From assembly GCA_003388555.1 (NCBI GenBank), contig QQVD01000056.1, positions 186,001-250,000 of the forward strand: a stretch of 64,000 bases of DNA. Direction: 5' to 3'. The position numbers and the translations under genes are program-made. This DNA is from Acidobacteriota bacterium. GTDB lineage: Bacteria; Acidobacteriota; Thermoanaerobaculia; Multivoradales; Multivoraceae. Shown here in pieces: positions 7,129-23,084 of this stretch (the stretch's first letter is position 1; the number at the start of each line of letters is the position of its first letter). Below the pieces are notes generated by a model. It made no database searches and had not been told where the DNA came from. It saw only the letters and a list, made by a program, of their open reading frames with translations.

Positions 7129-7498
7129 GGGAGTCCCGCAGGGGAGTGGCGCAGGGGTTCTTGGTCCGGCGCGTCGATTCCGCCGCCACGTCGCGAAGCG
7201 CGAGCCATGTCGCGAGGCGCGGCGTTGGTGGGCGCAGAGGTTGGTGAGCGGAGGTTCGTCCGGACTCTAGCGCGCGGCCGTCTCCGGCGATGGCGGCAGG
7301 GTGAGTCTGCGTCGGAGTCCTCGTCGCTGGAGCCCAGAGGCAGCGAGCTGAGCCGCACGTATTGGCAGTCGGGCCTGCGAAGACTGACGCTCGTTCCCCA
7401 TCCTCCCCTGAAGGGGGTCGCTTCATGAGACACCCCCACCCAGCCTCCCCCTGAAGGGGGAGGGGTCGGAGGCTCGCGGTCTTCGGGCGAGGCGTTGG
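7129..7498. repeat. Intergenic region with palindromic repeat mosaic
   Basis: No gene is supported here. The left part (7129-7320) shows nothing recognisable. From ~7324 to 7480 there is a mosaic also found elsewhere: CAGCGAGCTGAGCCG, then CTGACGCTCGTTCC, then a near-palindrome CCTCCCCTGAAGGGGG, and then a 20-bp palindrome of the form CCTCCCCCT..AGGGGGAGG at 7444-7463. The same blocks recur at 9.2-9.5, 24.7, 28.7-29.0 and 58.2-58.7 kb. There is no T-run after the palindromes, so a standard Rho-independent terminator is not supported. Confidence 0.75.
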
Positions 7499-8902
7499 CT
7501 ACCGACCGGGCAGCCAGGAGAGGAGGCGCTGCCACCAGCTCCGCTTCGCGGGGCGGCGGACGTGCAGGGTCGTCTCCATCTCCGAGGGCGGCCGCGGCGG
7601 GCGCCGCGGGGTCGAGCCTGCGGAGGGACGCTGGGTCGGCGTTGGGGCGACCGGCGGCGACGGAGGAGAAGCCGTGCTGCGGGGCGCCGGCTCGGCCGAG
7701 CTGCCGGCCGCTGCCGCCGGAGCGGGACGGGAATCGGCGGCCGCGGCCGGTGCCTGGGGCTGCGGGGGCAGAAGCCGCCCCGGCTCGGTCTTGGCCTCGG
7801 TGGGGTCCTGCCTGGAGCGAGTCGCGCCGCGCGCAGGGCGTGGAGCGGCAGGCGAGGCGGACCCGGCGACGCCCGGGGGCGGCCCCTCCCTGGCCCACTG
7901 CTCCTCCAGCTTGCGCACCTCGTCGCGTGAGATCAGCACCGTGGCGGCTTCGTCGGCGGTGTCCTCCTCGGGATCGCCGAGCAGGCGACCGACCTCGCGC
8001 GCCAGCGCGTCGCGCTCCTGCGCCGGTGGCCGCAGGCGGGCGAACACGGCGAGTACTTCGCCCGCCGTCTCGGGACGCTCCTCGGGCGCCTTGGCGAGCA
8101 GTCGCACGATGACCTGGCGCAGACCGCCGGGAACCCGCGCCGCCGGATCGGCCTCGTCGAACTCCATTGGCGGCTTGAACAGCTGGTTGGAGAGCACGTC
8201 GGCGAAGCTCTTGCCGGCGATCGGGCAGGTGCCGGTGAGCAGCTCGAAGGCGAGCACGCCGAAGCCGTAGAGGTCGCTGACCGGACTCAGGTTCTGCGAA
8301 CCGCCCTCCTTGAACTGCTCCGGAGCGGTGTAACGCGCCTTGCCGACGAACGAACCGATGGCTGTGTTGCCGCCCAGCGAGTCGCCCTTGGCGGTCGCCT
8401 TGATGATGCCGAGGTCGATCAGCTTGACGTCCGGTCCACCCTGGAGGTCGCGCGAGAGCATCAGGTTGTCGGGCGCGATGTCGCGGTGCACGAAGCCCTG
8501 CGAATGGAGCAGCTGGATCGCCTCCAGGCCCTGGCAGAGGATCTCGACCCCGAGCTCGAGCGAGGGAGGACCGTGGTCCTCGAGCACCCGCGAGAGGTCT
8601 TTGCCGGCGATGTGCTCCATGATGATGTAGGAGCTGCCGTCCTCCTCGATCGAGAAGTCGTAGAGCTGGGCGACGCGGGCGTGGCGCAGACGCGAGGCCG
8701 CCTTCGCCTCGCGCAGGAAGCGCTCACGGGCGGTGTCGGTGAGCTCGACCTGCGGCCGGATCAGCTTCACCACCCTCAGCTCGCCGAGCAGCTTGTGGCG
8801 CACGCGGTAGATGGCGCCCATGCCGCCCTCACCGAGCTTCTCGAGGATCTCGTACTTGCCCTCGAGCGGGCGCAGAGCCGGTTCGTCGGAGGTGAGTGTC
8901 AT
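7499..8902 (-). CDS. Soluble Ser/Thr protein kinase with Pro/Ala-rich tail
   Basis: The start at 8902 (MTLTSDEP) lies just before the kinase domain; the longer frame upstream runs through repeat DNA and is not supported. Residues ~17-280 form a Hanks-type kinase: P-loop GEGGMG (24-29), Lys in VVKLIRP (K46), catalytic loop HRDIAPDN (139-146; Ala where Lys is usual, a variant seen in some bacterial kinases), a DLG variant of DFG (163-165), and YTAPEQF. The tail is rich in Pro, Ala and Ser, contains Thr motifs EAATVL and METTLHV, and ends in a Trp-rich amphipathic segment (SWWQRLLSWLPGR). No clear membrane span is visible. It follows the FHA/cytochrome gene block in the same orientation after ~640 bp and is the obvious candidate to create phospho-Thr sites for those FHA domains; this link is inference. 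Confidence 0.88.
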   Translation of the reverse strand: MTLTSDEPALRPLEGKYEILEKLGEGGMGAIYRVRHKLLGELRVVKLIRPQVELTDTARERFLREAKAASRLRHARVAQLYDFSIEEDGSSYIIMEHIAGKDLSRVLEDHGPPSLELGVEILCQGLEAIQLLHSQGFVHRDIAPDNLMLSRDLQGGPDVKLIDLGIIKATAKGDSLGGNTAIGSFVGKARYTAPEQFKEGGSQNLSPVSDLYGFGVLAFELLTGTCPIAGKSFADVLSNQLFKPPMEFDEADPAARVPGGLRQVIVRLLAKAPEERPETAGEVLAVFARLRPPAQERDALAREVGRLLGDPEEDTADEAATVLISRDEVRKLEEQWAREGPPPGVAGSASPAAPRPARGATRSRQDPTEAKTEPGRLLPPQPQAPAAAADSRPAPAAAAGSSAEPAPRSTASPPSPPVAPTPTQRPSAGSTPRRPPRPPSEMETTLHVRRPAKRSWWQRLLSWLPGR

Positions 8903-9158
8903 CGGTTCGAGGGAAGCGCCGGGGGAGCGGCTTGCGGCCGGTCGACGGGTCGGTTTCGATGCTGCTGGATCATACGGGCTCAGAGCGGGATGCGTTCCGT
9001 CTGCGGTGGTCGCGGAGCGCGGATCCTGCTGGTGGATGGGAAACCGAGCGATGCGTGGGATCGCCTCACGGACGGGAGCAGAAACGGGCGGCGGCGAGCT
9101 GAGCGGCGACAGCGGCAGTCGACCCGCGAAGACTCTGGGCTGTCGCCTCGGAACGAGC

Positions 9159-9212
9159 CGGATGGTTGGGGAAACCCCCACCTCTTTCCTCCCCCTGAAG
9201 GGGGAGGAGGTC
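9159..9212 (-). repeat. Inverted partial copy of the 115-bp repeat with palindrome
   Basis: Read on the minus strand, this contains the palindromic core CCTCCCCCTTCAGGGGGAGG (9188-9207 on the plus strand) and then GGTGGGGGTTTCCCCAACCATCC, matching the end of the tandem units at 9288-9517. The rest of the 8903-9539 spacer outside the repeats shows no gene or tRNA. Confidence 0.75.
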
Positions 9213-9287
9213 GGAAGGCTCGCGGTCGACGAGGGTGCTCGCAGGCGAACCAGAGAAGACCGAGCAAGTCCCCGACCCCGGCCGTCC

Positions 9288-9517
9288 GGCTGGTCGCGAC
9301 GAAGCCCTTGCTTCTCAATGATTCCCAGCCCCCAAACCCCTGACGCCGGACTCTTCCCCCTGTAGGGGCAAAGGCTGGGAGGGAGGTTTCCTGCCATCCG
9401 GCTGGTCGCGACGAGGTCGTTGCTTCTCTCTGATTCCCAACCCCCCAACCCCTGACGCTTGACTCCTCCCCCTGCAGGGGGAGGCTGGGTGGGGGTTTCC
9501 CAGCCATCCGGCTGGTC
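9288..9517 (+). repeat. Two direct ~115-bp tandem repeat units
   Basis: Two head-to-tail units begin at about 9288 and 9403. Shared blocks in order: GGCTGGTCGCGACGA, TTGCTTCTC, TGATTCCCA, AACCCCTGACGC, a CCCCCTG.AGGGG palindrome, and GCCATCC. A third unit begins at ~9518 with GGCTGGTCGCG but is cut short. The units lie between the flavoprotein gene and the kinase gene, about 20-250 bp past the flavoprotein stop codon. They are too long and too few to be CRISPR repeats. Confidence 0.85.
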
Positions 9518-9539
9518 GCGGCAAGGCCGATCGCCTCCC

Positions 9540-11900
9540 CTACTCCACCACCTCCACCACCACCGGACCGGTCACCCGCGCCATGCAGGCGAGGCGGCAG
9601 GGGCCGGGCTCGAGCTCGCAGACGTCCTCGAGGGTCTCGGCCTCCTGGTCGCCGAGTGCCACCAGGTGCTCGGCGCCCTCGAGGATGCGGATGGGGTCGC
9701 TGCCGCAGATGCCGGCGTGGCACTCGGCCTTGAGGCGGATGCCGTGCTGCTCGGCGAGGTCGCAGATCGACTGCCCCTCGGCGATGGGCAGGGTGCGGCC
9801 GTCGGGGCGGAAGGTGACGCTGGGACCGTCGCCGGCTGCGGGGCTCGCTTCCGGTGCGGTTGGCTGTGGCGTCGACAGGCTCGACGCGGGCGCGGTCGCG
9901 GCGGCGCGCGGCGCCGCGGCGGCGGGACGCACCCCCGACAGCGTGCCCGGCCGCGCCGGCTGGTGCAGGTCGAGGTCGACCAGGGCTTCCCCGATCTGCA
10001 GCGCCAGCTGCTGCTGGCCGATGCGGAAGCGGGAGCCGTGCTCCAGCCTGGCGCCGCGGCGCAGGCGCAGGAAGGTGCCGTTGGCGCTGCGCAGGTCCTT
10101 GACCTCGACCTCGCCCTCGACCACCGCGAGCGCCAGGTGCCGCCGCGACAGCGAGCGGTCTCCGGCGTCGAGCACGACGTCCGGGGCGTCGCGTCCGAGC
10201 ACGCTCCAGTGGTCGTCGATCGGATACCGGCCGACGACCTGGCCGCGGGCGTCGTAGTGCACCAGTTGCTGCTGCGCGCCGAGTTGCAGGAACTGGCGGC
10301 CGACCTGCAGCAGGTCGCCCTCTTCGAGTACTGTGCGCAAGCCCGGGCGCAGGCGCAGGTAGGTGCCGGAGGCACTGCCGGCGTCGCGCAACACCACCGT
10401 GCCGTCGGGCTCGATCTCGAGGTCGGCGTGGTGCTCGGCGACCAGGCCGTCGTCGAAGCCGAGGTCGGCGGAAGAGTCGCTGCCGATGCGCACGGTGGTG
10501 CCTGGCCTGAAGGTCCGCAGCTCCTCGGTCTCGCCGCCAGGCGTCACCCGCAGCACGGTGGCGCCCGTCGCACCCTGGCCCTCGCCCCGGTCCGACGTAG
10601 CGCCTGCCGTGGCTGCCGGTTCTTCTTCGGCGCCGTGGATCGTCTCGGCGGTGGCCACCGCGAGACCGTCCTCCGCGGCGATCTGCTCGGCGTCCTCGAC
10701 GGTGACCCGCGGCTGGTCGACGCCCTGCAGCCGCTGCGCCACCGCCTCCGCGACGAGCACGCCGTCGCGCAGGGCGGTCTTGATGTTGCCGCGATGGCGG
10801 ACCTCGCGGAAGCCTGCCGGGTCGGCGGCGAAGTCGTCGCACTCGAAGTAGGCCTGGCTCAACAGGTCGCCGAGCACGAAGACGTTGCGCCGGCAGCTCT
10901 CGAGGATCGGGCTGGCGACCATGCGCCGACGTCCCTTCGGTCCACCCTCGACCCTCGAGATGCCGAGCGATCCGAGCAGCGCCTCCGGCAGGTCCTCGCC
11001 GATGCAGGCGATGCAGCACTGCTTGGGGAACTCGAGGTGGGTCGTCTCGTTGGGGCGGCCGACGAGCTCGCGCCGATCGACACGCAACGAGAGGTACTCC
11101 TGGTGATCGTCGCCGGTGACCACGGCCGCCGGCTCGGAGCGCGGGAAGTAGCGGATGTTGCCGTTGCCGACGTAGGCGGCGAAGAAGACGTCGGCGAGCG
11201 CCTGGGAGACGCGCGGCATGCGGTCTCCACGGTACGACCAGTAGACGGCGGTGGGGTCGTCGGCCGCCGCCTTGGCATTGGAGATCGCGATCACCGCCTC
11301 CGCCGCCGAGGTGCCGCCGCCGACGACGCAGGCGGGGCGGCCGACGTACTCGCCGGCGTTCTCGAGGCGCAGGGCGATGCCCTCGGTGTTGCCCGGAATG
11401 TCGAAGCGACGCGGCACGCCGCGCCCGAGCGCCAGCGCCACCGCACGCGCCTGGACGCCGGTCTCGGCGTGCTCGCGGTGATCGAAGAGGCGCACCGAGA
11501 AGCCTGCCTCGTTGCGGGCGTCTGTTGCCTCGCCGTCGATGCCGAGCAGCTCGACGCCGACCGCGTAGGACACGCCGTGGTCGGCATACAGCGCCTTCCA
11601 CCGACGGCACATGTCGTCCTTGTCGATCGGATCGAAGCGCAGCGCCGCGATGGCGTCGCCCCCCTTGGGGAAGGCCACCCGATCGCCGCCGCCGAACGAC
11701 GGCAGGATGAGCTTGTCCTTCGAGTAGTCGCGGATGCGCTTCATCAGGTCGTCGAAGTCGACGACCAGCACCGACAGGCCGAGCTCGCGCGCCCGGAAGG
11801 CCGCCGCGGTGCCGGCGGGGCCGCCGCCGACCACGAGCAGGTCGACCGGCCCGTCCGCGGCCACCGGCAGGCCGGTCGGTGGCGGGTCCGTGGTACTCAT
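9540..11900 (-). CDS. Flavoprotein oxidoreductase - FHA - FHA - [2Fe-2S] ferredoxin fusion
   Basis: The 786-residue protein starts at 11900 (MSTTDPPP), 100 bp after the double-FHA gene. Residues ~18-395 form a two-dinucleotide-fold oxidoreductase: FAD motif VVGGGPAGTAA (23-33), NAD(P) motif VVGGGTSAAEA (192-202), a Cys-rich CCIAC (295-299) and the terminal FAD motif VFVLGDL. Two FHA-like domains follow (~449-542, weak; ~558-640 with RSLSRRHLAL and SANGTFL). A Pro/Ala linker leads to a ferredoxin-like domain (~693-786) with C727, C732 and C772, but Asp735 stands where the third cluster Cys is expected; C761 and C768 are extra. It probably moves electrons between NAD(P)H and the locus's Fe-S/heme chain, with FHA docking to phospho-Thr. 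It is cytoplasmic: no signal peptide is seen. Specific reaction unknown. Confidence 0.85.
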   Translation of the reverse strand: MSTTDPPPTGLPVAADGPVDLLVVGGGPAGTAAAFRARELGLSVLVVDFDDLMKRIRDYSKDKLILPSFGGGDRVAFPKGGDAIAALRFDPIDKDDMCRRWKALYADHGVSYAVGVELLGIDGEATDARNEAGFSVRLFDHREHAETGVQARAVALALGRGVPRRFDIPGNTEGIALRLENAGEYVGRPACVVGGGTSAAEAVIAISNAKAAADDPTAVYWSYRGDRMPRVSQALADVFFAAYVGNGNIRYFPRSEPAAVVTGDDHQEYLSLRVDRRELVGRPNETTHLEFPKQCCIACIGEDLPEALLGSLGISRVEGGPKGRRRMVASPILESCRRNVFVLGDLLSQAYFECDDFAADPAGFREVRHRGNIKTALRDGVLVAEAVAQRLQGVDQPRVTVEDAEQIAAEDGLAVATAETIHGAEEEPAATAGATSDRGEGQGATGATVLRVTPGGETEELRTFRPGTTVRIGSDSSADLGFDDGLVAEHHADLEIEPDGTVVLRDAGSASGTYLRLRPGLRTVLEEGDLLQVGRQFLQLGAQQQLVHYDARGQVVGRYPIDDHWSVLGRDAPDVVLDAGDRSLSRRHLALAVVEGEVEVKDLRSANGTFLRLRRGARLEHGSRFRIGQQQLALQIGEALVDLDLHQPARPGTLSGVRPAAAAPRAAATAPASSLSTPQPTAPEASPAAGDGPSVTFRPDGRTLPIAEGQSICDLAEQHGIRLKAECHAGICGSDPIRILEGAEHLVALGDQEAETLEDVCELEPGPCRLACMARVTGPVVVEVVE

Positions 11901-12000
11901 CCGATCCGTCTCCCCCGCGGCCCGGACCGGCGATCTCTCGAGCCGCCAGACCAGCGCGTCGTCATGCCACGCTCCCGGCAGGGAGCCGGAGCGCCGTCCG

Positions 12001-12981
12001 TCATGGCGGCTCGTACTCGAGCTCGGCCCGCACGTCACCGAAGGCCAGGTGGGCCCCTTCGTCGAGCTCGGTCCGATGGTCGATCTCGCGCCCCTCGACG
12101 AAGGTGCGGTTGCTGCTGCCCAAGTCTTCCACAGCGACGGTGTCGCCGACGTCGAAGCGGGCGTGGCTGCGCGAGAGGTGCGGATGGTCGATGCGCAGCT
12201 CGGCCTTGGTGCCACGGCCGAGCACGTGTGAGCCGCGGGCGAGCGGGAATCGGTACTGCTGCGCTCTCGGCTCCTCGACACGGACCACCAGGACCCAGCG
12301 ACCGCCGCTCGGCCGCACGGCAGGCGGGCGCGCAGCGCGCTGACCAACCGGGCCAGGGGCGGCCTCGGCCGCAGGTGTCTCGGCGACGGGCTGCCCAGGC
12401 TGGCGCGACTCCGCAGACTCCGCAACGGGCGGGGAACCGGCCCGCTGGCCGGCCGAAGCGTCGTCCTCGGGGCGCCCTCCGCCGAGCGCTCCGGGCAGCA
12501 CCGGCGCCTCCATCCCGACGACGGTGCGGTCCGGCGAAGCCTCCTGCGCCTCGGGGATCCGCGACAGCACGTCGGCGAGGAACTCCGGCCCCTCGCTGAT
12601 CGTGGTGCGATCGGGCACGTCGGTGGTGTCGTGCTCGCCGGCGAAGAGGGGGGCTACAGCGCCGCCAGCAGCCGGACCCGAGAAGATCAACTCTCCGACG
12701 CCGGCGAAGCCGATGATGGCGACGTCGCCGAGCGGCGTCGGACCGCGGACCGGCATGCCGTCGACCCTGGTGCCGTTGCTGCTGCCCTCGTCGTGCAGCA
12801 CGAAGCGGACCGCCTCGGGGTCCCACTGGATGCGGGCGTGGCGCTGCGACACCGCGGGATCGGCGAGCACGACGTCGTTGCCGTGGCCACGACCGATCGT
12901 GATCAGGTCGCCGACCGAGACCTCGAGACCCTTGAAGGGGCCGTACTTCCCGAACAGGCGCGCCGGCGTCGGCTGGCTCAC
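12001..12981 (-). CDS. Double-FHA domain protein
   Basis: The 326-residue protein begins with GTG at 12981, overlapping the decaheme gene's stop as GTGA, which points to translational coupling. FHA 1 (~10-95) has GRGHGNDVVLAD, SQRHARI and GSSNGTRVDG, all core phospho-Thr-binding motifs. FHA 2 (~228-318) has GRGTKAELRI, LSRSHARF and GSSNRTFVEG. The ~130-residue linker is Pro/Ala-rich and holds two DRT motifs, DRTTI (124-128) and DRTVV (151-155), which look like possible phosphorylation sites that could bind the protein's own FHA domains. No membrane span or enzyme domain is visible. It probably acts as a phospho-dependent adaptor between the kinase and the redox proteins beside it; partners are inferred from position only. 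Confidence 0.88.
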   Translation of the reverse strand: MSQPTPARLFGKYGPFKGLEVSVGDLITIGRGHGNDVVLADPAVSQRHARIQWDPEAVRFVLHDEGSSNGTRVDGMPVRGPTPLGDVAIIGFAGVGELIFSGPAAGGAVAPLFAGEHDTTDVPDRTTISEGPEFLADVLSRIPEAQEASPDRTVVGMEAPVLPGALGGGRPEDDASAGQRAGSPPVAESAESRQPGQPVAETPAAEAAPGPVGQRAARPPAVRPSGGRWVLVVRVEEPRAQQYRFPLARGSHVLGRGTKAELRIDHPHLSRSHARFDVGDTVAVEDLGSSNRTFVEGREIDHRTELDEGAHLAFGDVRAELEYEPP

Positions 12982-14708
12982 GGCGCCCCTCCGGAAGACC
13001 AGCTCGCGCCCCCCGATCGACTGGCGCGACCCGCCACGCGGGGAGTCACCGAGCCGAGCGAGAGCGGGTGGTAGCCGTGGCAGGTGGTACAGGAGTCACT
13101 CGCCTCGTCGGCGCGATGACACTCCTGGCACCTGGCGACGCCCGGCAGGTTGATCGTCTCGGCGCGATCCGAGCCCGCAGCCGCGGCCTCGGCGTCGACG
13201 CTCTCGCCGGCCAGCAGGTCCACGAGCTCGGGGATGCGGTCGTGACAGCTGGCGCAGTCGGCCTGCAGCCGGTGCGCCTCGTGATCGAACGCGGCGCGCT
13301 CGAAACGCGCCAGATCCGGCTCGACCCGCACCAGCGCGAGCCGCTCCAGCCGGTGGCATACCAGGCACTCGCCGGCGAGCGCCTGCACCGTCTCGTCGAG
13401 GCGGGCGCGACCCGCGTCGCTGAGCGGCATCCGATCGCGCACCGCGAAGGCCTCGGGGTCGAGCTGCTGGCTCGACTCCTCCAGCCGGCGCCGCGCCGCC
13501 GCCAGCAGCGCCTCGACCTGTCGCGCCTCGTCGCGGGTCGCCGCGTCGGCGGCGCTGCGCTCTAAGCGCCGCGCACGCTCTTCGAGCTCGGCGATCGCCT
13601 GACGGTAGAGCCGACGTGGATCGGTTTCGTCCTCGTCTCCGGCGACGGGCACCAGATCGGCGAGGGGCGTGGTCGCGTAGACCTGCGAACGCAGGAAGGC
13701 GAGGTTCTGCACCACCCACGGGTCGGGATGCTCGAGACCTCTCTTGCGCACCCGCCCGCGGCGCTCGTCGAAGTCGCCGCCGTGCAGCTCCTCGGCCCAG
13801 CGAGGTCCCAGCGCCCGCCGCAACTCGGCGAACGAGCGCACGCCGAAATCTCCCTCGGCGCCCGCGTCGTCCTGGGCCTGCAGCGCGCTGGCGAGCCCCA
13901 GCCACTCGGTGCTCTTGGCGGCGCCGAGGTGGCACGACGAGCAGTGCGCCTCGAAGTCGAGCGGCGCGAAGCCGCGAGCGCCGGGCTGGGGCACGTGGCA
14001 GAGCCCACAGGTCGCCGCGGCGTCGCCAGCGCGGTCGCTGCGCACCAGCTCCTCGCTATGGAAGACGTGGGTGAAGGCCAGGGCGGCTGCCGGCGGCTGT
14101 GCTGTCGCCGGCGCCGGAGACTCCGCCTGGTCGAGGGCGGCGAACTGCGGGTGCTCGGCGAAGCGGTCGAGATCGTGGCAGGACCGGCAGCCGGTGTCGG
14201 CCGTCGCCGCGAGATCGTGTCCGCGCCCACGGTGCTCGTGGTGGCACTCGCTGCAGGTGGCTTCAGCGACCACCGCGCGGTGAGGGTTGCCGTAACGGGC
14301 GGCGTGTGCGTCCACCGACCAGCTGGAGAACGGCGGCGCCGTGGCTGCAGCTCCGAGCTCGTCCGCGCCCGTCGCCGACGACGCCAGGACGGGCTCGGGC
14401 GCCAACTCTGGATCGTGGCATTCGATGCAGCGAGCGTCGGTGGCGCCGCGGCCCGGCTCGTGGCACGCCGCGCACTGCGCGCCGAGTCCGGCGTGTGCCG
14501 ACGACAGATCGCCGCTCGACAGCAGCACCGGATCGGCGCGCCCGGCGTCGAACGCCGCGTAGGCGGCGAAGACGAGGCCGAGACCGAGACCCACCCAGAG
14601 CATGATCCGCCGCCGGGCCAGCGGAACATACGCCGCCGCGACCGGCAACAGGCCGTGGGCGAAGGTCCCCTTGCGGTTGAGCGTCGGAGGTCTGTCGGGA
14701 GGCGTCAC
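12978..14708 (-). CDS. Membrane-anchored decaheme cytochrome c
   Basis: The chosen GTG start at 14708 lies 28 bp after the cytochrome b gene and has AGGA upstream. The 576-residue product has an N-terminal membrane segment (~33-55, IMLWVGLGLGLVFAAYAAF) and ten CXXCH heme sites at ~79, 94, 152, 174, 234, 256, 448, 485, 527 and 540. Six hemes precede and four follow a ~190-residue insert, which includes a charged, Leu-rich likely coiled coil (~365-415). Spare His residues (for example HHEHRG, FTHVFHSEE, FDHEAHR) could give bis-His ligation. It would face the periplasm, taking electrons from or giving them to the cytochrome b encoded just before it. It resembles the cytochrome c3/c7-type multiheme group in general; no close named family is recognised. 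Confidence 0.85.
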   Translation of the reverse strand: MTPPDRPPTLNRKGTFAHGLLPVAAAYVPLARRRIMLWVGLGLGLVFAAYAAFDAGRADPVLLSSGDLSSAHAGLGAQCAACHEPGRGATDARCIECHDPELAPEPVLASSATGADELGAAATAPPFSSWSVDAHAARYGNPHRAVVAEATCSECHHEHRGRGHDLAATADTGCRSCHDLDRFAEHPQFAALDQAESPAPATAQPPAAALAFTHVFHSEELVRSDRAGDAAATCGLCHVPQPGARGFAPLDFEAHCSSCHLGAAKSTEWLGLASALQAQDDAGAEGDFGVRSFAELRRALGPRWAEELHGGDFDERRGRVRKRGLEHPDPWVVQNLAFLRSQVYATTPLADLVPVAGDEDETDPRRLYRQAIAELEERARRLERSAADAATRDEARQVEALLAAARRRLEESSQQLDPEAFAVRDRMPLSDAGRARLDETVQALAGECLVCHRLERLALVRVEPDLARFERAAFDHEAHRLQADCASCHDRIPELVDLLAGESVDAEAAAAGSDRAETINLPGVARCQECHRADEASDSCTTCHGYHPLSLGSVTPRVAGRASRSGGASWSSGGAP

Positions 14709-14736
14709 CTGGCTCGTCCTGGTTGCAGGCCGGCGA

Positions 14737-15618
14737 TCAGTAGTAGAGGTTCGCCCCGACGTGCAGGGCGACCGCGAAGACCAGCAGGATCGAGGTCGGC
14801 ACGTGCAGCCAGAGCCACCACCGTAGCGCCCGCTGCACCGAGTAGCTGGCGTCGATCTCGATCTTGGTCTGCAACATGCGCTCGAGCTCACTCAGCGCAC
14901 GCCCCGCCGAGTCGTCGACCCGCTCGGCGAGGTGATCGAATCCTCGCCGCCACTGCTGACGCCCGCCGGAGACGTCGAGCAGGTAGCTCCAGCGCGGCTG
15001 CAGTCGCGCGAAGCGTCGCTCGAGCGACGACTCGTAGAAGCTGGAGATCGGCGGTCCGGCCTCCGACGCAACCCGCCGCGCCCGCTGCCGCAGCTCGTCC
15101 ACCAGCTCGTCGGCGCGCTGGTACAGCACCTCCACCGAGAGACTCGACGCCAAGATGCGCGGCAGGATCCGCTGCGCCAACAATCCGAGCAGTCCGCTGG
15201 CGACGGTCCAGATCGAGAGCACGAGGAGCAGGCGGCCGAGGGCTCCGGTCGGCCACCGGAAGCCGCCGTGCATCAGCACCAGAACGAGGAACACGACCCC
15301 GCCCGCGAGGTGCAGGTCGAGCCAGGCGCGCGCCGATCCGAGGCGCAGCCTGGTCGCCGTCGCCTGTGCCCGGCGCCTCCCGGCGAGCGCCAGAGCGGCG
15401 AGCAGCAGGAAGACGGCGACGCCGCCGTACCAGAGACTCCAGGAGTTGCCCGGCTCGAGCTCGCCGAGCCAGACATTCAGAGTCAGGACCAGGCCGAGGG
15501 CCAGGATCCCGGCGACGCTCTGACGCACCCAGGTACTGAGCTGCGGCATGAAGACGCCGCGCGCGGCGCTGGCATCGCGCGAACGGCGCAGCACCGCCTG
15601 GCGCGGCGAGGCGCTCAC
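14737..15618 (-). CDS. Membrane diheme cytochrome b
   Basis: The GTG start at 15618 overlaps the upstream stop as GTGA; the longer frame is spurious. The 293-residue protein has about five membrane segments (~33-50, 60-80, 100-118, 127-147, 267-290). His pairs H103/H117 and H272/H286 are each 14 residues apart in two different helices, the usual arrangement for two stacked b hemes in a four-helix bundle. A soluble loop of ~110 residues (150-260) rich in charged residues lies between helices 4 and 5. It could connect the cytoplasmic Fe-S protein encoded upstream with the periplasmic decaheme cytochrome encoded downstream, possibly through quinone. The family name is uncertain; the b-heme reading rests on the His spacing. 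Confidence 0.8.
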   Translation of the reverse strand: MSASPRQAVLRRSRDASAARGVFMPQLSTWVRQSVAGILALGLVLTLNVWLGELEPGNSWSLWYGGVAVFLLLAALALAGRRRAQATATRLRLGSARAWLDLHLAGGVVFLVLVLMHGGFRWPTGALGRLLLVLSIWTVASGLLGLLAQRILPRILASSLSVEVLYQRADELVDELRQRARRVASEAGPPISSFYESSLERRFARLQPRWSYLLDVSGGRQQWRRGFDHLAERVDDSAGRALSELERMLQTKIEIDASYSVQRALRWWLWLHVPTSILLVFAVALHVGANLYY

Positions 15619-17285: not shown

Positions 17286-19504
17286 CGACGGTTCCCCTGG
17301 CGCCGGCTGCCCGGAGGGTCGGCAGGCGGCTCGGCAGGCGTGCGGCGCTGGAGGTCGTCGAGACGCTTCTTCAGCGTCTCCAGCAGCTCGTCGAGCGGTG
17401 CCTCGGGGTCGACCTCGAGCGGCTGCAGCGGCTCGGCCTCGGCTTCGGCGGCGGTGGCGCGCGGAGCCCGGGACCGCGAGGCGTCGGCGGGCGAGCCGAC
17501 CGGCGAGCCCGAATCCTCCGGCGCGGCGCCCGGCGCCGACCCGCCGGAGTTGGCGCCCCCGTCGGCAGCGGCGGTGGTCGGCAACGGAGCGCGAACGCGG
17601 CGCGACGGCGGGGCGCGCCGGATCGGCACGTCCGGCACCGGCCCACGGGCCGCCAGCGCCGCGCGTGCCGCGTCCCGCACCACGCCGGCCGCATGGATCG
17701 GTGCCTCCCAGTGGCGGATCGTGGTCATCGCGCTCGCATAGTCGAAGTCGGCGCCCGACGGATGGCCCGAGGAGATGAGGCGCTCGTCGGTGACGTAGTG
17801 GCAGCGGCTGCACGTCTCGAGCCGCGCCGGTAGATCGGCCAGGCGCGTCATGCCGAGGCGCAGCGCCGCCTGGTAGCCCGGTCGCGCGTCACCGAGCTCC
17901 TTCTCTCCCTGCTGGTGGGGCTCGAGGTAGTCGCCACCCGGACCGTGACAGCTCTCGCAACCGACCCCGTCCTGCACCTCCCGGCTCTCCTTGCCGGTCA
18001 CCACCGTGGCATGACAGCTGGTGCAGATTCGATCGCCGCGCAACAGCTCGGTGCGACCGAGGCCGTAGTTGGACGCGATCTCCAGCGCCCGCGGCGTCTC
18101 GTCGAAGAGACGATCGGCGGCCGCGTAGTGGGCGTCGCCGAACCACCACTCGTTCTGTGGCGCGTGGCAGCTGCTGCAGGCGCCGCCGAGGGTGGCGTGG
18201 GACGACGCCGGCCACAGGCGGCGCTTCTTCTCGCCGACCACCTCGACCGGCGCTTCGGGCTCGGGCTCGCCGAGATCGGCGACGACCGCCCCGCCCGGCG
18301 GGCCCGGCGTCGTCGCATCCGGAGCGGCCGCCTCGGGCGCCGCGCCGACGTCGGTCACACGCTCGTCCTCAGGGGGAAGGTCGCGAGGCCGGCGCGGCAG
18401 CTCGCGAAGTTCCGGCAGATCCGGCTCCGGTCGGCCGAGCAGGTAGGCGTCCAGAACCTCGAGCTGCGCCGGCTCGAGTCTGGCCAGCAGCCCCGCTGTC
18501 TGCGTCCGCACGACTTCGGCGGCAGCGAGCAGCTCGCCGCTGCGTCCCTCCTCCACCGGCGCGAGATGGGCGGCGAGGATCGCCTGCCAGAGCTCGTCGG
18601 CAGGCAGCCTGCGGTGCACCTCGCGCAGCTCGGCGAGGGCGCTGCGCAGTCGGCGCTGCATCGCCTTCAGGTAGAGACCGTCGCTGGTGGCGCGGGAGGC
18701 GCCGCGCAGCGAGTACTCCACCGACAGCGCGGCGCCGGCCAGCTCGAGCTCGCGCCGACGCTCGATGCCGCGCTCGGCGTTGTCGCTGGAGCCGCCACGC
18801 TGTGCGGCGAGGAAGTTGTGGCGGATGGTGCCCTGGGTCTGCTCCCAGAGGTCGAAGGACGCCGCACCGGTGCTGTGGCCGCCCGTGTCCACCAGCGTCT
18901 CGTCGGTGACGAAGTGACACCCGAAGCAGGCGGCGCCGAGCGCCAGCACGTCGTCGACCCGATGCATCCCGGCGGCGCGGCTGCGCTCGATGCGCATCTG
19001 CCGGTGATCGGCGCTCTCGCTGGCGAAGTCGGCGCCGGCGCCGTAGTCGTTGTGCACCTCGATCCAGTCGGCCGCCTCGCCGTGGCACGACTCGCAGGAG
19101 ACTCCGGAGCGCGCCCGCAGCTCGACGCCGCCGTCGCGTGCCTCCTCGAGCTCGGGCGTGTAGTGACAGCGTAGGCAGACGCTGTCGCGCTTGATCAGGG
19201 GGAAGCCGAGTCGCTCGGCGATCTCCTCGGCCGCCTCCTGGCGGTGCAGGGTCTTGAAGCCGGTCTCGTGCGCGGTCTGCTGCCAGACGGCGTGCTCGGC
19301 GACGTGGCACTCGCCGCAGGCCTCGGCTCCGCGCACCTTCGAGAGGTCGAGGCGGCTGTACGCGGCGAGGGCCTCCGGTGGCGACTCCGCGACCGGCGGC
19401 GCCGCTCTCGCCCCGACGCTCGAGCCGGCGGCAGCGGCGGCGCCCAGAGCCAGGACGAGTGCACGGCGGCCGGAGCGCGAGAGCCTCGGGGCGCCTCGCG
19501 GCAC
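17282..19504 (-). CDS. Octaheme cytochrome c made of two tetraheme halves
   Basis: The GTG at 19504 follows a good ribosome site (GGAGGAGGGTCC), giving 740 residues. A basic, then Ala-rich start (RRALVLALGAAAAAGSSVGARA) looks like a signal peptide. CXXCH sites lie at ~63, 110, 137, 193 and again at ~443, 494, 516, 565. Each half ends alike: CFGCHFVTDETL...GTIRHNF and CSRCHYVTDERL...TTIRHWE, so the protein arose by internal duplication; the ~250-residue region between is helical and Pro-rich. The third heme of each half shares CESCHG. It resembles cytochrome c554-type tetraheme proteins. The C-terminus (~610-740) is Pro/Ala/Arg-rich and heme-free, with a short amphipathic helix. It is expected in the periplasm as a relay between the decaheme cytochrome and outer-membrane components. 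Confidence 0.85.
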   Translation of the reverse strand: MPRGAPRLSRSGRRALVLALGAAAAAGSSVGARAAPPVAESPPEALAAYSRLDLSKVRGAEACGECHVAEHAVWQQTAHETGFKTLHRQEAAEEIAERLGFPLIKRDSVCLRCHYTPELEEARDGGVELRARSGVSCESCHGEAADWIEVHNDYGAGADFASESADHRQMRIERSRAAGMHRVDDVLALGAACFGCHFVTDETLVDTGGHSTGAASFDLWEQTQGTIRHNFLAAQRGGSSDNAERGIERRRELELAGAALSVEYSLRGASRATSDGLYLKAMQRRLRSALAELREVHRRLPADELWQAILAAHLAPVEEGRSGELLAAAEVVRTQTAGLLARLEPAQLEVLDAYLLGRPEPDLPELRELPRRPRDLPPEDERVTDVGAAPEAAAPDATTPGPPGGAVVADLGEPEPEAPVEVVGEKKRRLWPASSHATLGGACSSCHAPQNEWWFGDAHYAAADRLFDETPRALEIASNYGLGRTELLRGDRICTSCHATVVTGKESREVQDGVGCESCHGPGGDYLEPHQQGEKELGDARPGYQAALRLGMTRLADLPARLETCSRCHYVTDERLISSGHPSGADFDYASAMTTIRHWEAPIHAAGVVRDAARAALAARGPVPDVPIRRAPPSRRVRAPLPTTAAADGGANSGGSAPGAAPEDSGSPVGSPADASRSRAPRATAAEAEAEPLQPLEVDPEAPLDELLETLKKRLDDLQRRTPAEPPADPPGSRRQGNRR

Positions 19505-19708
19505 GGACCCTCCTCCAGACGATGTGCGAAGCGCTGCGATGGCGGCTCTCAACGCCGGGACCGGCCTCTCCAAGTCAGGTGGGTGGAGCTGCAAAGGTAC
19601 CACTCGTGAGCCCGGGTGAGCGGGCGTCTCAGGGTCCGAACGGGGCTGGTGCGTCGGGTGATGATTCGGCTCCGGATCGATGCCCGTCCGCCCCCTGAGC
19701 CACGGGCG

Positions 19709-21250
19709 TCAGAACTTGGTCAGCAGCTCCAGTCGCCCGCCGAACGACGAGGCGTCCTCCTCACCGGGGATCAGCGACTCGCGAACGCCGACGAAGCTGT
19801 CGGCGACGATCACGAAGCGGCGTCCGAAGGCGCGCTGGTAGCGGAACGTCGCGGCGGCCGCGTCGGCGACATCGCTGGCGGTGCCGACGCGCAGTCCGAG
19901 CTCCGCGATCCACTGGCTGCGCTTGTCCTTGGCGAACCACTGGTAGCCGACCGCGCCACCGGCGACGTCGCGCGCCTGGCTGCTGAGCGGCGCACCGTAG
20001 TTGCCGAGGCCGACCGCGGCGAAGCTGATGCCGACCCGGCCGAGAGGCCCCCCCAGCGCCGGGTCGCGCACCACCGGCGCATAGTCGTCGAAGGCGGCGA
20101 AGGCGGCGATGTAGGGGTGGTCCTTGGTGCCGTGCGGGATCCAGGAGACCTCGCCGAAGACCAGCGAACCGTCGGTGGCCACGGCGCCCTCTCCGTCGGT
20201 GGCGCTGGAATGGGCGAGGAAGAGCGAAGTGGCGAGCTTGCCGATGCGCTGCACGCCGCTGAGCCCGAGGTTGAGCTGCGAGGCGCCGTCGCGCGAGGCG
20301 TCGAGCCAGGCGAGGTCGACGTCGATCGTCGAGCGCCGCACGTCGGTCGAGGTCAGCAGCGCCAGCAGGCGGGCGTCGTCGTCCTCGAGGTTGGCCCTCC
20401 CGGCGCTGCGGTCGGCGCGGTGCAGGTTGTTCCAGGCGTAGAACAGGGTGGCCCGGAAGTTGGAGGTGCCGCGCGGCAGCAGGGTGTTGCGGGTGATCCC
20501 GATGCCGTCGACGACGTCGTTGATGAGGAAGCCGTCCTGGAAGACGAGCGGCTGACGTCCGACCGAGAAGCCCCAGTCGGTGGCCTTGAAGTCGCTGCGG
20601 CTGAGATTGGGGAAGATCTCGCCGAAGTCGCCCTCGAAGAACAGGGTGCCGAGACGGGTGTTGAGCTCGTCCTGGAAGCCCTCGTCGAGCGCCGCGCCGT
20701 CCGACTCGACGACGTAGCTGGTGAAGCGGCCCGCCTCGTCGAGACTGCGCAAGCCGATCACCAGGCGCTCGGTGCCCGACAGCTGCAGGTTTCCGAACAG
20801 ATCGAGCCGCGCCGGAGCCTCGATGGTCTGCACGTCGTTGTCGTCGAAGACCTGGGCGGCGACGCGCAGCGAGCCGAAGACGAGGAACGCGGGCTGCCAC
20901 ACCGCACCGGTGGGCAGCTCGATGCCCTCCGACAGGGTGCCGGTGCCGAGGAACGGCTCGCCGAGCTCGAGCAGCGGCTCGGGACGCTGCGGGAAGTCCT
21001 CGATCTGCAGTGGGATGCGCTCGGCGCTCAGCCGGCTCGAGTGCTTCTCGCCGTGCTCCGCGTCGGCCTTCGCGTCGCCGTCGTCTTCATCGTCCTTCTC
21101 GTCACCCGCCTCGTGCCCAGAGGCGGCACGGCCCTCCTCCTCGGCCCGCCCCTCGGATCGCGTCGCCTGCGGCTGACCGGCCGCGGCGCCGGCCGACGCG
21201 ACGAGCAGGACGGCGGCACCGATCAGGGCTGCGCTGCGGTCACCGGACAT
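19709..21250 (-). CDS. Outer-membrane beta-barrel protein (porin-like) with acidic/His linker
   Basis: The 513-residue protein has a short signal peptide (AALIGAAVLLVASAGAAAG), then a strongly acidic stretch with His residues (~30-72), then ~440 residues of alternating hydrophobic/polar strands with aromatic girdles. It ends in LELLTKF, a terminal Phe typical of proteins inserted by the BAM machinery. It overlaps the pentaheme gene by 11 bp and is followed by the octaheme gene after 204 bp, so it probably forms the outer-membrane part of the same system. It is shorter than MtrB-type barrels and has no N-terminal CXXC, so I do not assign it to that family. A general porin or a sheath around a cytochrome are both possible. 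Confidence 0.75.
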   Translation of the reverse strand: MSGDRSAALIGAAVLLVASAGAAAGQPQATRSEGRAEEEGRAASGHEAGDEKDDEDDGDAKADAEHGEKHSSRLSAERIPLQIEDFPQRPEPLLELGEPFLGTGTLSEGIELPTGAVWQPAFLVFGSLRVAAQVFDDNDVQTIEAPARLDLFGNLQLSGTERLVIGLRSLDEAGRFTSYVVESDGAALDEGFQDELNTRLGTLFFEGDFGEIFPNLSRSDFKATDWGFSVGRQPLVFQDGFLINDVVDGIGITRNTLLPRGTSNFRATLFYAWNNLHRADRSAGRANLEDDDARLLALLTSTDVRRSTIDVDLAWLDASRDGASQLNLGLSGVQRIGKLATSLFLAHSSATDGEGAVATDGSLVFGEVSWIPHGTKDHPYIAAFAAFDDYAPVVRDPALGGPLGRVGISFAAVGLGNYGAPLSSQARDVAGGAVGYQWFAKDKRSQWIAELGLRVGTASDVADAAAATFRYQRAFGRRFVIVADSFVGVRESLIPGEEDASSFGGRLELLTKF

Positions 21251-23084
21251 CGCCGAGATCGACCTCTCGCTCCCAAAGCACCTGGTGCCCGGCGACGACT
21301 CGCTCGGCGATCTCGCGAGCGCTCATGAAGTAGTCGAAGCCGACCTCCTTGATCTCGTCGACCAGGTTGACCGGCACCATCGCCGCCTTGAGCCGCACCT
21401 CGGCGCGGTAGGGGCCGTTGCCGGTGAGGTTCCTGGCGGGCACCCGGTACTCGGCCCAGCGGTGGCCGAGAGGCTCGATGTTCTGCTTGTGCTTGCGGGC
21501 GCCGAGGGGCCGACCGGTGAGGATGGTCGAGGTGGTCGAAGGGCGCAGGAACGGCAGCGGGTCGGGCGAGTAGTTCACCGCCAGCACCTGCTCGCGCTCG
21601 CCGCCGCGCACCATACGGGTGAGGAAGCGCGACTGCAGCGAGAAGAGATGCCGGTCGAGCGGCAGCTCGCCGTTGTGCACGTAGAGCGAGTGGGTGTCGC
21701 GCACGTCGCCGTTGGGATCCAGGTCGCCGGAGCGGAAGACGATCTCGCCATCGCGGTCGAAGACGTCGACCGCCAGCCAGACCAGGCGCTCGGCGTCGAA
21801 GCCGGTCGGCACGCCGTGGCCCGGCGTGGCGTTGCGCACCTGCACCCGGAAACGCAGGTCCTTGCGGCCACCCTCCGCGACCTCGATGTCGCCGAGCTGG
21901 TATCCCGCGCGCAGGAGCTCCCGCCGCGCCCGGTGCGCCTCGTCCAGCAGCTGCTGGTTGTCGTCGAGGATGTCGCGGGCGTCGTAGCGGTCGTCGGCCG
22001 AGCGCCAGCGCTCCGGGAACTCGTAGTCGTCGGGGCGGCTGAGCTCGAACTCGTCGGTGCCCCAGCCGGCCTCGTGGTCGAACTGCAGCCACTCGCGGAT
22101 CGTCGCCAGCTCCGAGGCGGCGGTGTTGTGCGGGAAGATCCCGGGATGCACCACTGAGTAGTCGGGACCGATGAACATGTGATCGGTGCGCTTGCGCGGC
22201 AGCGTCGGCCTGTCGCCGACGACCGCCGCCGGCTCCTCGCGGTAGCCGGAGACGACTCCGGGCTCCCTGCCCATGTGGCAGTCCTGGCAGCTGACCCCGT
22301 CCTTCGCCGCCGGCGACGTCTTGAACTCGGAGAACGCCTCTTCGAGCCGGAAGCCGTTCATCAGGTTGACGTCGTGGCAGGTGCCGCAGAAGCCCGAGGT
22401 CGAGAGCTGGAAGAACTTCTCGGCCTCGAGGTGGATGTCGCGGCCGCCGCGCTCCGGATCGGTGTTGACGAAGTACTCACCGCTGTCGATCACCCGCTGC
22501 AGCTCGTCGTTCCCCTTCGGCCCGTAGACGGTCTCGAAGATGTCGCCCTCGACCAGGGCGAGGCGACCGCTGAGCTTGCCGTAGGCGTTGTTGACCCGGT
22601 GGCAGACGATGCAGGTGACGCCTTCGCGCGAAGTCGGGTGGCGGTCCATGTTCGACATGAACTCGGGCTCGCCGAGGTTCATCCCCACCGGGGTGTGGCA
22701 GCGGATGCAGAAGTCGCCGTTGGTGCCGTTGGTGCGCTTGAGGATCGTCCCGTGCATGGCGTTGAACACCGGACTCATCTGCGCGTAGGCGTGCGGCGAG
22801 ACCGACCACTCGCGGTAGTGCGACGGATGGCAGGTGGCGCAGGTCACCGCTGAGGGGAAGCGATCCTCGAGGAAGAGCGCCGCGTGCTCGGCGTCGGCCG
22901 AGGCGGCCGCCGGCGTCTCGTCGGCGGCGGCACCGACGGAGCTCGAGAACGCGAAGGCGGAGGCTCCGGCCGCGGCCGTCAGCAGGACGAGGCCGGTGAG
23001 CGCCACGAGCGGCGAGCGGGCGACGAGTGCGACGCGACCCGCCGCGAGATGGCGCGGAGCATCACACCGAGGAGATCCGGACAT
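21240..23084 (-). CDS. Secreted pentaheme cytochrome c with C-terminal beta-domain
   Basis: The ATG at 23084 has AGGAG nine bases upstream; the longer frame lacks support. The 614-residue protein has a long signal peptide (~17-45) and CXXCH sites at ~82, 126, 158, 233 and 266, in the cytochrome c554/hydroxylamine-oxidoreductase-like style (CATCHPSHYREW, CHTPVGM, CIVCHRV, CGTCHDV, CQDCHMG). After the hemes comes a heme-free half (~290-614) with Trp/Tyr-rich strand patterns, such as LRFRVQVRNATPGHGVPTG, which resembles a C-terminal beta-domain found in related multiheme proteins. It is the first gene of the locus; the promoter should lie in the 256-bp divergent space before 23341. It may be the terminal donor or acceptor at the outer membrane. 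Confidence 0.85.
   Translation of the reverse strand: MSGSPRCDAPRHLAAGRVALVARSPLVALTGLVLLTAAAGASAFAFSSSVGAAADETPAAASADAEHAALFLEDRFPSAVTCATCHPSHYREWSVSPHAYAQMSPVFNAMHGTILKRTNGTNGDFCIRCHTPVGMNLGEPEFMSNMDRHPTSREGVTCIVCHRVNNAYGKLSGRLALVEGDIFETVYGPKGNDELQRVIDSGEYFVNTDPERGGRDIHLEAEKFFQLSTSGFCGTCHDVNLMNGFRLEEAFSEFKTSPAAKDGVSCQDCHMGREPGVVSGYREEPAAVVGDRPTLPRKRTDHMFIGPDYSVVHPGIFPHNTAASELATIREWLQFDHEAGWGTDEFELSRPDDYEFPERWRSADDRYDARDILDDNQQLLDEAHRARRELLRAGYQLGDIEVAEGGRKDLRFRVQVRNATPGHGVPTGFDAERLVWLAVDVFDRDGEIVFRSGDLDPNGDVRDTHSLYVHNGELPLDRHLFSLQSRFLTRMVRGGEREQVLAVNYSPDPLPFLRPSTTSTILTGRPLGARKHKQNIEPLGHRWAEYRVPARNLTGNGPYRAEVRLKAAMVPVNLVDEIKEVGFDYFMSAREIAERVVAGHQVLWEREVDLGDVR

Follow-up and report, generated by a model that had tools for sequence, protein, structure and literature searches.

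In the window, by which we mean the whole 64,000-nucleotide stretch of Acidobacteriota contig QQVD01000056.1 that was analysed, we found eight genes on the minus strand (23084-9540) in the order PENTA-BARREL-OCTA-CNBFD-CYTB-DECA-FHA-FADFHA. The explanation that we favor, with modest confidence, is that they encode an NAD(P)H:multiheme-c oxidoreductase that would export electrons through swappable outer-membrane conduits and be restrained by FHA phosphothreonine readers. The analysis shows the gene order, the cofactor ligands, fusions, the predicted topology of the fusions and the FHA residues, and from these we infer the electron order at each step, the direction of flow, the gating and the outer-membrane placement.

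An eight-gene locus with a conserved order

The eight genes and the kinase gene that follows them are:

PENTA, 23084-21240, minus strand, 614 aa: five CXXCH motifs; predicted secreted pentaheme c-type cytochrome of the c552/ExtKL-like (PHC) family
BARREL, 21250-19709, minus strand, 513 aa: putative outer-membrane beta-barrel
OCTA, about 19504-17282 (start uncertain), minus strand: eight CXXCH motifs; predicted periplasmic octaheme c with two c554-type tetraheme halves
CNBFD, 17285-15615, minus strand, 556 aa: two CNB domains and a ferredoxin with sites for four [4Fe-4S] clusters
CYTB, 15618-14737, minus strand, 293 aa: predicted five-TM diheme cytochrome b
DECA, about 14708-12978 (start uncertain), minus strand: ten CXXCH motifs; predicted inner-membrane-anchored periplasmic decaheme c
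FHA gene, 12981-12001, minus strand, 326 aa: predicted cytoplasmic protein with two FHA domains (FHA1, FHA2)
FADFHA, 11900-9540, minus strand, 786 aa: predicted NAD(P)H-binding FAD oxidoreductase-FHA3-FHA4-Fer2 ferredoxin
KIN, 8902-7499, minus strand, 467 aa: Ser/Thr protein kinase

A preliminary description had reported eight co-oriented genes with three 4-bp overlaps, and the gene coordinates bear this out, the overlaps being OCTA/CNBFD, CNBFD/CYTB and DECA/FHA. PENTA and BARREL overlap by 11 bp, the FHA gene and FADFHA are about 100 bp apart, and a gap of 637 bp with palindromic repeats separates FADFHA from KIN. Two other points of that description need correction: the locus encodes six redox proteins (PENTA, OCTA, CNBFD, CYTB, DECA and FADFHA) rather than five electron carriers, and the genes do not run strictly from outer membrane to cytoplasm, as DECA comes after CNBFD and CYTB. 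By consensus scan of 7300-23400, we found no sigma-70-like promoter; the same region has 6 terminator-like sites as compared to 2.6 ± 2.2 in shuffles, and two of the 6 are on the minus strand, within the PENTA and FHA genes. These scans neither support nor refute one transcript for the eight genes. Rfam (at the gathering threshold) and tRNA searches gave no match.

Of 27 related loci, 12 have exactly the gene order of the window, another 10 are broken by contig ends yet agree with the order, and 5 differ. The named relatives belong to Acidobacteriota, Gemmatimonadetes and Ca. Troglogloeales. Since it is found again in loci of several phyla, this order is not a product of chance, which upholds the earlier claim of one system with a conserved gene order. 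The phylum searches scored the best 2-5 candidates per genome, and their counts are lower bounds. Among the chosen genomes, PENTA was found in 14 of the 18 that have type A and in none of the 5 that lack it. In one variant (L063), neither CYTB nor DECA is present within the stretch read and DECA is missing from the whole genome, suggesting that the FAD/FHA/CNB-ferredoxin part can function independently of the conduit. In plasmid searches, neither DECA nor FADFHA as query gave a match.

A predicted path from NAD(P)H to periplasmic hemes

FADFHA matches the Pfam families Pyr_redox, FHA (twice) and Fer2 (Pyr_redox_2 E 5.8e-13), and its dinucleotide motifs GGGP and GGGTSAAEA are conserved in 25/25 rows; with both motifs present, we predict that it is an NAD(P)H-FAD oxidoreductase. 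A stretch after the second nucleotide motif, R-G-x-[RK]-[ML]-P-[RK], is found in 25/25 and, by analogy with thioredoxin reductase, makes NADPH the more likely substrate. CNBFD has two cNMP_binding stretches and Fer4 domains by Pfam, and 16 Cys are invariant in 19/19. CYTB has five hydrophobic helices, and H103, H117, H272 and H286, invariant in 21/21, form two His pairs on two helices, which suggests a diheme membrane cytochrome b. These pairs are also kept in rows from other architectures, except L111, whose sequence stops short of the second pair; L108, L112, L119 and L120 had no called CYTB ORF. CYTB matched no Pfam family at E 0.01, with weak b561/DUF4405-like matches only, and reached 0.014 at best against Ferric_reduct, in 4/21 members. 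DECA has one hydrophobic helix upstream of its first heme, and 22 of 23 full-length relatives have 10 hemes.

The inner part (CNB-ferredoxin, diheme b, multiheme c, FHA and FAD) recurs in several phyla with differing outer parts, and its components are fused in several relatives. CNB-ferredoxin is fused to cytochrome b in L065 and, by profile, in L114-L117; FAD is fused to CNB-ferredoxin in L080 (Pfam) and in L102-L106 and L120 (profile); and FHA is fused to decaheme c in L103 (Pfam, above cut-off) and in L102, L104-L106 and L080 (profile). A single FHA-TM-hemes-TM-Fe/S-FAD protein is present in L114 (Pfam) and L115-L117 (profile), and Sphingobium megaplasmids encode FAD-CNB-CNB-ferredoxin and FHA-TM-decaheme proteins. 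In the eight two-helix proteins, hydropathy predicts that FHA and FAD share one side, across the membrane from the hemes. Together with the invariant cofactor ligands, the fusions back the path suggested earlier, from NAD(P)H through flavin, Fe/S and heme b to periplasmic hemes. In this path, the cytoplasmic flavoprotein FADFHA would oxidise NAD(P)H, and electrons would move from its Fer2 domain to the four-cluster ferredoxin of CNBFD, on to the cytoplasmic-side heme of CYTB (H103/H272), across to the periplasmic-side heme (H117/H286) and then to membrane-tethered DECA.

CYTB might instead exchange electrons with the (mena)quinone pool, with the FAD/CNB-ferredoxin/FHA part only regulating or branching off. 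Most of the known diheme b subunits that accompany multiheme c proteins (CbcL, Hmc, Tmc, Dsr) do react with quinones; however, the fusion of CNB-ferredoxin to CYTB and of FAD to a heme protein points to direct transfer, and we consider a quinone-linked CYTB quite unlikely. The locus resembles the Dsr, Hmc, Tmc, Qrc and CbcL complexes, whose gene groups likewise combine a Fe/S ferredoxin subunit with diheme b and multiheme c, but CNBFD matches to the DsrO and HmcB models are far under the curated cut-offs (49.7 against 200 and 29.8 against 420), and those complexes are not known to contain FAD, FHA or CNB domains. With NOX/FRE it would share two stacked b hemes (His pairs 14 residues apart), a cytoplasmic NAD(P)H-FAD and outward electrons; in contrast, there is no common sequence family at a trusted score, and Fe/S clusters and multiheme c are added here.

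The outer part and its possible roles

By Pfam, the multiheme proteins of the locus are C554/c3/c7-type cytochromes. PENTA matches Cytochrome_C554, and its positions 77-277 match PDB 5ze8 with profile E 9.2e-18, the five-heme domain being homologous; it is thus predicted to be a member of the pentaheme PHC family (c552/ExtKL). The ExtKL equivalog NF040886 gave 31 bits on PENTA, below its curated cut-off of 250. OCTA has two Cytochrome_C554 stretches, and the heme count is 8 in 15/17 full-length relatives. No protein scored above cut-off with the models for MtrA/DmsE-type decahemes (TIGR03508; OCTA 37.3, PENTA 28, cut-off 192.2) or OmcA/MtrC-type extracellular decahemes (TIGR03507; PENTA 23.2, DECA 22.3, cut-off 209.3).

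BARREL has a hydrophobic segment at its N-terminus and an invariant C-terminal K-F (14/14). Its C-terminal Phe signature, signal peptide and context are our basis for calling it a putative outer-membrane barrel. BARREL matched no Pfam family at E 0.01 and had no usable PDB match, and comparison of BARREL and CYTB with solved structures by sequence gave only chance-level matches. Strand alternation in the BARREL alignment (75 windows vs 54.7 ± 13.6 in shuffles) was not significant. AlphaFold gave a pLDDT of 34 from a single sequence and 32.5 from three sequences, both too poor to use; the three-sequence model contains many long hairpins at low confidence, to which we give no weight.

In the proposed chain, DECA would pass electrons to periplasmic OCTA and on to PENTA and BARREL at the outer membrane, which would deliver them to an acceptor outside the cell. 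Alternatively, PENTA and OCTA could be an enzyme of the periplasm or outer membrane that acts on a soluble sulfur, selenium or nitrogen compound, with the barrel as substrate channel and no outward wire. Within the order, PENTA is conserved more strongly than any other protein compared (71-74% vs 22-65%), as enzymes are; of 12 aligned orthologs, 10 are 71-74% identical and the remaining two 37 and 40%. According to PMC11976967, ExtKL, a relative of PENTA, belongs to a Geobacter cluster that also has a gene for an outer-membrane protein, and a role in sulfur metabolism has been suggested for c552. In other architectures (Sphingobium megaplasmids), however, the inner part adjoins an unrelated outer module, in which an LVIVD multiheme cytochrome accompanies a putative barrel. 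The inner part is thus found coupled to two unrelated outer modules, which argues that what they have in common is delivering electrons, not acting on one substrate, and we consider the enzyme reading improbable.

Like the porin-cytochrome conduits (MtrCAB/MtoAB, ExtABCD, ExtHIJKL, PCC3), the locus groups genes for multiheme c cytochromes with one for a putative outer-membrane barrel, and its PENTA is PHC/ExtKL/c552-like. In contrast, the heme counts here are 5/8/10 with no MtrA/DmsE-type decaheme above cut-off, and the predicted inner end is NAD(P)H-FAD, Fe/S and diheme b with FHA/CNB, whereas that of the porin-cytochrome conduits is a CymA/NapC-type quinol oxidase.

Direction of electron flow and possible relatives in the literature

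Flow could also be inward, with Fe(II), Mn(II) or some other reduced donor supplying the outer module and the complex feeding NAD(P)+ or ferredoxin. Conduits can operate in both directions, a relative exists in Ca. Troglogloeales, and a table row in PMC10734462 lists an FHA-labelled decaheme, cluster 403 'Forkhead-associated protein' with 10 heme motifs, in 27/87 iron-oxidising Gallionellaceae genomes. By its FHA label on a decaheme this cluster resembles Sphingobium RS18445, an identity that we infer from the row; 'forkhead-associated' has a single occurrence in the main text. On bioenergetic grounds, however, transfer from such donors to NAD(P)+ would run uphill and would oppose the membrane potential, and the genes include none for an ion-pumping subunit. 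In addition, the Troglogloeales genome has no PENTA match and no BARREL match in the stretch read. We therefore regard inward flow as unlikely. Outward flow, which we favor, would pass over two b hemes without pumping and would thus be downhill and, like that of NADPH oxidases, waste membrane potential; the machine would therefore have to be kept shut.

In the open-access literature, represented mostly by titles and abstract openings, we found no description of this complex. Two candidates were set aside: PCC_1-3 of a Mn-oxidiser are porin-dodecaheme complexes, and the main text of PMC9040806 contains neither 'cyclic nucleotide' nor 'FHA'; the word 'forkhead' in PMC12575090 is an unrelated gloss on FoxEYZ.

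Signal domains and a possible phosphothreonine lock

A cNMP-binding CNB domain has a phosphate-binding cassette with Glu and Arg. At the aligned position this Arg is absent from both CNB domains in 19/19 type A rows (in CNB2 of L048 and L064, an Arg stands one position further on), and it is also missing in L112 and L113. It is present in both CNB domains of Sphingobium, L102-L106, L120 and L107-L111 and in CNB1 only of L114-L118. The 'ligand-controlled' label of the preliminary description, read as control by cNMP, is thus not borne out for type A, although more distant relatives keep the Arg. In this lineage the CNB domains would be a second input, probably non-cNMP, or a scaffold. In the CNBFD linker, many of 19 rows have a phospho-acceptor-like 'IFDxxRT', an observation to which we attach no weight.

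The phosphothreonine site of an FHA domain consists of Gly-Arg, Ser and Asn. In FHA4 all of these are kept (25/25), and the structural His is Gln in 9/25. Gly-Arg is found in 22/26 for FHA1, 23/24 rows having the domain for FHA2 and 20/25 for FHA3. The FHA gene matches Pfam FHA twice, and by their site residues the FHA domains are predicted to be phosphothreonine readers. Four FHA domains are present, as described earlier, but FHA3 is degenerate in the window, where it has lost key residues, including Gly-Arg. The FHA domain of Sphingobium scores under the Pfam cut-off, and L107-L111 gave no FHA match. FhaB and OdhI models match the FHA-containing proteins below cut-off; like the FHA-based kinase switches GarA/OdhI and FhaB, the locus has FHA domains with phosphothreonine-site residues, but here they lie within a redox chain, whereas the GarA/OdhI-type switch is a metabolic-enzyme inhibitor.

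KIN matches Pkinase (E 3.9e-39). A kinase following the genes, as had been reported, is present in the window but is not constant: including the window, 8/23 loci have one (7/22 related loci with enough sequence, within 2 kb downstream on either strand). It is probably an associated, separate transcription unit rather than a constant operon part. In two loci, PP2C and a kinase lie upstream. The FHA and CNB domains might be structural docking modules with no signal response, as the loss of the key Arg from type A cassettes, the degenerate FHA3, the FHA-less L107-L111 and the inconstant kinase would allow. Set against this are the FHA4 site kept in 25/25, the kinase and PP2C genes that do occur and the canonical CNB cassettes of more distant relatives, and we consider docking alone rather unlikely. 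In the proposal that we favor, the FHA domains, which are predicted to be cytoplasmic and in relatives are covalently joined to the heme protein, would act as a lock, a phosphothreonine signal assembling or releasing the FAD/ferredoxin end.

Known extracellular conduits are mostly viewed as passive wires that receive their electrons from the quinone pool and are regulated at the level of gene expression. With a predicted NAD(P)H flavoprotein entry, phosphothreonine readers and nucleotide-sensor folds, extracellular electron flow could switch within seconds. Tentatively, and with some doubt, we suggest an undescribed, phylum-spanning superfamily of signal-gated exporters in which an NAD(P)H-fed CNB-ferredoxin/diheme b/multiheme c engine with phosphothreonine readers, some of them linked to the heme subunit, would serve at least two unrelated, interchangeable outer-membrane modules. 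If so, bacteria would have their own equivalent of NADPH oxidase, one that sends its output through the envelope, under post-translational control by Ser/Thr kinases and, in some lineages, cyclic nucleotides. The inner part occurs with different outer modules, and domains have been shuffled among its proteins; this makes the electron order testable, and the condensed version on the megaplasmids of Sphingobium strains makes genetics possible now.

Gene order in the window

We found that all nine minus-strand genes of the preliminary description (23084 to 7499), eight co-oriented genes and then a Ser/Thr kinase, are present in the window, as are the three 4-bp overlaps claimed between them; a further junction overlaps by 11 bp. 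The window corresponds to positions 186001-250000 of its contig, in a draft genome of 6.8 Mb. In order, the first eight encode a 5-heme cytochrome c (PENTA), a putative barrel (BARREL), an 8-heme cytochrome c (OCTA), a CNB-ferredoxin (CNBFD), a 5-TM cytochrome b (CYTB), a 10-heme cytochrome c (DECA), a double FHA protein (FHA) and an FAD-FHA-FHA-ferredoxin (FADFHA). The kinase gene, ninth, is separated from the rest by 637 bp that contain palindromic repeats; with up to 3 mismatches allowed and on both strands together, this pattern occurs 11 times in the window as compared to 1.1 expected. Other features of the window are as follows.

9188-9484, 7401-7463, 24719-24738 and 28703-28718: REP-like palindrome CCTCCCCCTGAAGGGGGAGG, flanking the kinase gene on both sides and recurring further right
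9278-9480: direct repeats spaced by 112 nt, with the same palindrome
4942-7128, minus strand: gene for a PQQ-type dehydrogenase, on the downstream side of the kinase
26937-27599, minus strand, and 45613-46248, plus strand: two more Ser/Thr kinase domains

Conservation of the gene set in relatives

FADFHA is present in 19 of 60 relatives, the window's own genome counted. When genomes were scanned with it, there were four records, from MAGs of Acidobacteria (L029), Thermoanaerobaculia (L030), Gemmatimonadetes (L031) and Ca. Troglogloeales (L032), and it occurs in at least 9 of 347 genomes of the window's phylum, at least 2 of 249 in the phylum of L031 and at least 2 of 245 in that of L032. We compared 27 loci around FADFHA (L029, L031, L032 and L042 replaced by fuller or identical stretches), and the order proposed from the window recurred across Acidobacteriota genomes and other phyla: twelve loci carry the complete set of eight with order and strand unchanged (counting L068, whose contig begins within PENTA), ten run into contig ends and match in the part that can be read, and five differ. 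In L043 the upstream PENTA-BARREL pair is missing and PENTA is found on another contig; in L065 the pair is turned round and CNBFD is fused to CYTB; L064 is without OCTA, PENTA and BARREL within the stretch; L067 has a tetraheme in place of OCTA, with PENTA and BARREL not in the stretch; and L063 has CNBFD, FHA and FADFHA only. This last, cytochrome-free variant (L063:1883-10484) adjoins PP2C and kinase genes, and DECA was not found anywhere in its genome.

Heme numbers in full-length relatives are nearly constant (5 in 12/12 for PENTA, 8 in 15/17 for OCTA, 10 in 22/23 for DECA). Of the 18 chosen genomes with the window-like architecture (type A), 14 contain PENTA, as compared to none of five without it, among them G087, a type B carrier (Fisher p 0.004, relatedness ignored). 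In CYTB, four His are invariant (21/21) and form two pairs, on TM3 and TM5, each with a spacing of 14 residues, so that one heme would lie near each membrane face. The ferredoxin part of CNBFD has 16 Cys that are the same in 19/19, and FADFHA retains both dinucleotide motifs in 25/25. Its Fer2 domain (9827-9540) has three Cys and one Asp invariant in 25/25, with Asp at the place expected for the third Cys, and possibly holds a 2Fe-2S cluster with an Asp ligand.

Control domains and kinase linkage

The four FHA domains claimed for the window are present, but FHA3, the first of FADFHA, lacks Gly-Arg there; this pair is retained in 20 of 25 FHA3 rows. FHA4, the second, keeps Gly-Arg, Ser and Asn in 25/25, with His replaced by Gln in nine. 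In gene FHA, Gly-Arg is retained in 22/26 for FHA1 and in 23 of the 24 rows having FHA2.

The phosphate-binding Arg of a CNB cassette is required for cNMP. In type A it is missing at the aligned position of both cassettes in all 19 rows, which leaves the ligand control put forward earlier unsupported as far as cNMP is concerned. CNB1 has Gln there in 18 rows and Ile in L063; CNB2 of L048 and L064 has Arg one residue later. The Arg is likewise missing in L112 and L113, kept in both domains in architecture B and L107-L111, and kept in CNB1 only in L114-L118. The CNB1 insert in the CNBFD linker (16958-16839) varies in length; within it, 'IFDxxRT' recurs as a candidate phospho-acceptor.

Of the 22 loci with 2 kb or more of downstream sequence, 7 have a kinase domain within the first 2 kb, as does the window, and four of these eight kinases lie on the opposite strand. 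The genome has 81 Pkinase matches; about 78 kinases in 6.8 Mb would give an expectation of 3% per locus (p 5e-7, relatedness ignored). Thus, the kinase linkage is real, but the gene set does not invariably include a kinase. In L063 and L064, PP2C and a kinase lie upstream and divergent.

Condensed and fused architectures

A plasmid search with CNBFD gave 30 records, 12 of them Sphingobium megaplasmids, in which 67-69% of the query is aligned at an identity of about 30%; the other plasmid matches, among the rows listed, cover about 30%, and most carry the annotation of a DMSO-reductase subunit. In S. herbicidovorans MH (L080), a single 825-aa protein combines FAD, two CNB and Fe/S domains, the next gene encodes a homolog of CYTB (E 8e-9), and after it comes one for an FHA-TM-decaheme whose DECA part matches at E 6e-13 and whose FHA scores 17.6 bits, under the Pfam cut-off of 20.7. 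A condensed inner complex of this kind is carried by all 12 megaplasmid records, most of which annotate its genes as hypothetical; in L080 (10726-15901) its neighbours are an LVIVD multiheme cytochrome and a putative barrel.

With the 825-aa protein as query (E 1e-25), we found matches in at least 28 of 297 Acidobacteriota genomes, type A among them, and, for the Gemmatimonadetes phylum, in at least 2 of 249, each of them type A; the FHA-decaheme as query matched at least 1 of 245 genomes in the phylum of L032. Nineteen further stretches, 18 chosen Acidobacteriota matches of the 825-aa protein and the FHA-decaheme match L119 (phylum of L032), were read, and the architecture names B, C and D were assigned in this analysis.

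Architectures, with loci
B: FAD-CNB-CNB-Fd, CYTB, FHA-TM-decaheme (second TM and second FHA in four loci); L102-L106, L120, L080
C: CNB-Fd, CYTB, decaheme protein without FHA; L107-L111 among them, with no FHA match at all in these five stretches
D: fused CNB-Fd-CYTB, and FHA-TM-hemes-TM-Fe/S-FAD as one protein; L114-L117

In the D heme protein, the eighth CXXCH follows the second TM and probably belongs to an Fe/S site, which would leave seven hemes. No CYTB ORF was called in L108, L112, L119 or L120, the last two of which end with their contigs. In aligned rows of the other architectures the His of CYTB and the Cys of the ferredoxin are retained, barring alignment gaps at the second His pair of L111 and at the final group of Cys in L116. 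When 42 CNB-Fd sequences were placed in a tree, B and D each formed one well-supported group and type A formed one group save L063, which grouped with L112 and L113, both labelled C; the deep branching order is unsure because long branches were flagged.

Outer modules

Many B, C and D loci adjoin an outer gene set different from that of type A, so that one inner engine is found with two unrelated outer modules. A 9-10-heme cytochrome is found in 13 of 20 loci (the 19 stretches and L080; pairwise relatedness 40-71%) and was not within the stretch read in L110, L111, L113, L116, L117, L118 and L120. It is cut by the stretch in five loci and otherwise has 1238-1377 aa, except for a 1666-aa ORF in L112, where this outer module is combined with a type-A-like DECA (E 4e-65). 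Both cytochromes tested whole, from L080 and L107, have the LVIVD repeat by Pfam. A 578-835-aa protein with F or Y at its C-terminus is 36-66% related among ten loci, and B and L119 have an additional HbpS-like protein (by Pfam in L103, elsewhere by similarity, 32-36% in L080).

Proposed mechanism and known systems

An FHA gating step is proposed from the identity of the domains, the conservation of their residues, the linkage to kinases and, in relatives, the fusion of FHA with the heme protein; the proposed direction of electron flow follows from bioenergetic reasoning. The whole gene set resembles porin-cytochrome conduits, PENTA groups with c552 and ExtKL, and CYTB and CNBFD are like parts of Dsr/Hmc-type complexes, below the cut-offs of those models. 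Searches of an open-access library gave no account of the complex as a whole. The nearest mention, in PMC10734462, is a table row 'Forkhead-associated protein' with 10 heme motifs in 27 of 87 FeOB genomes, which is presumably the same FHA-decaheme.
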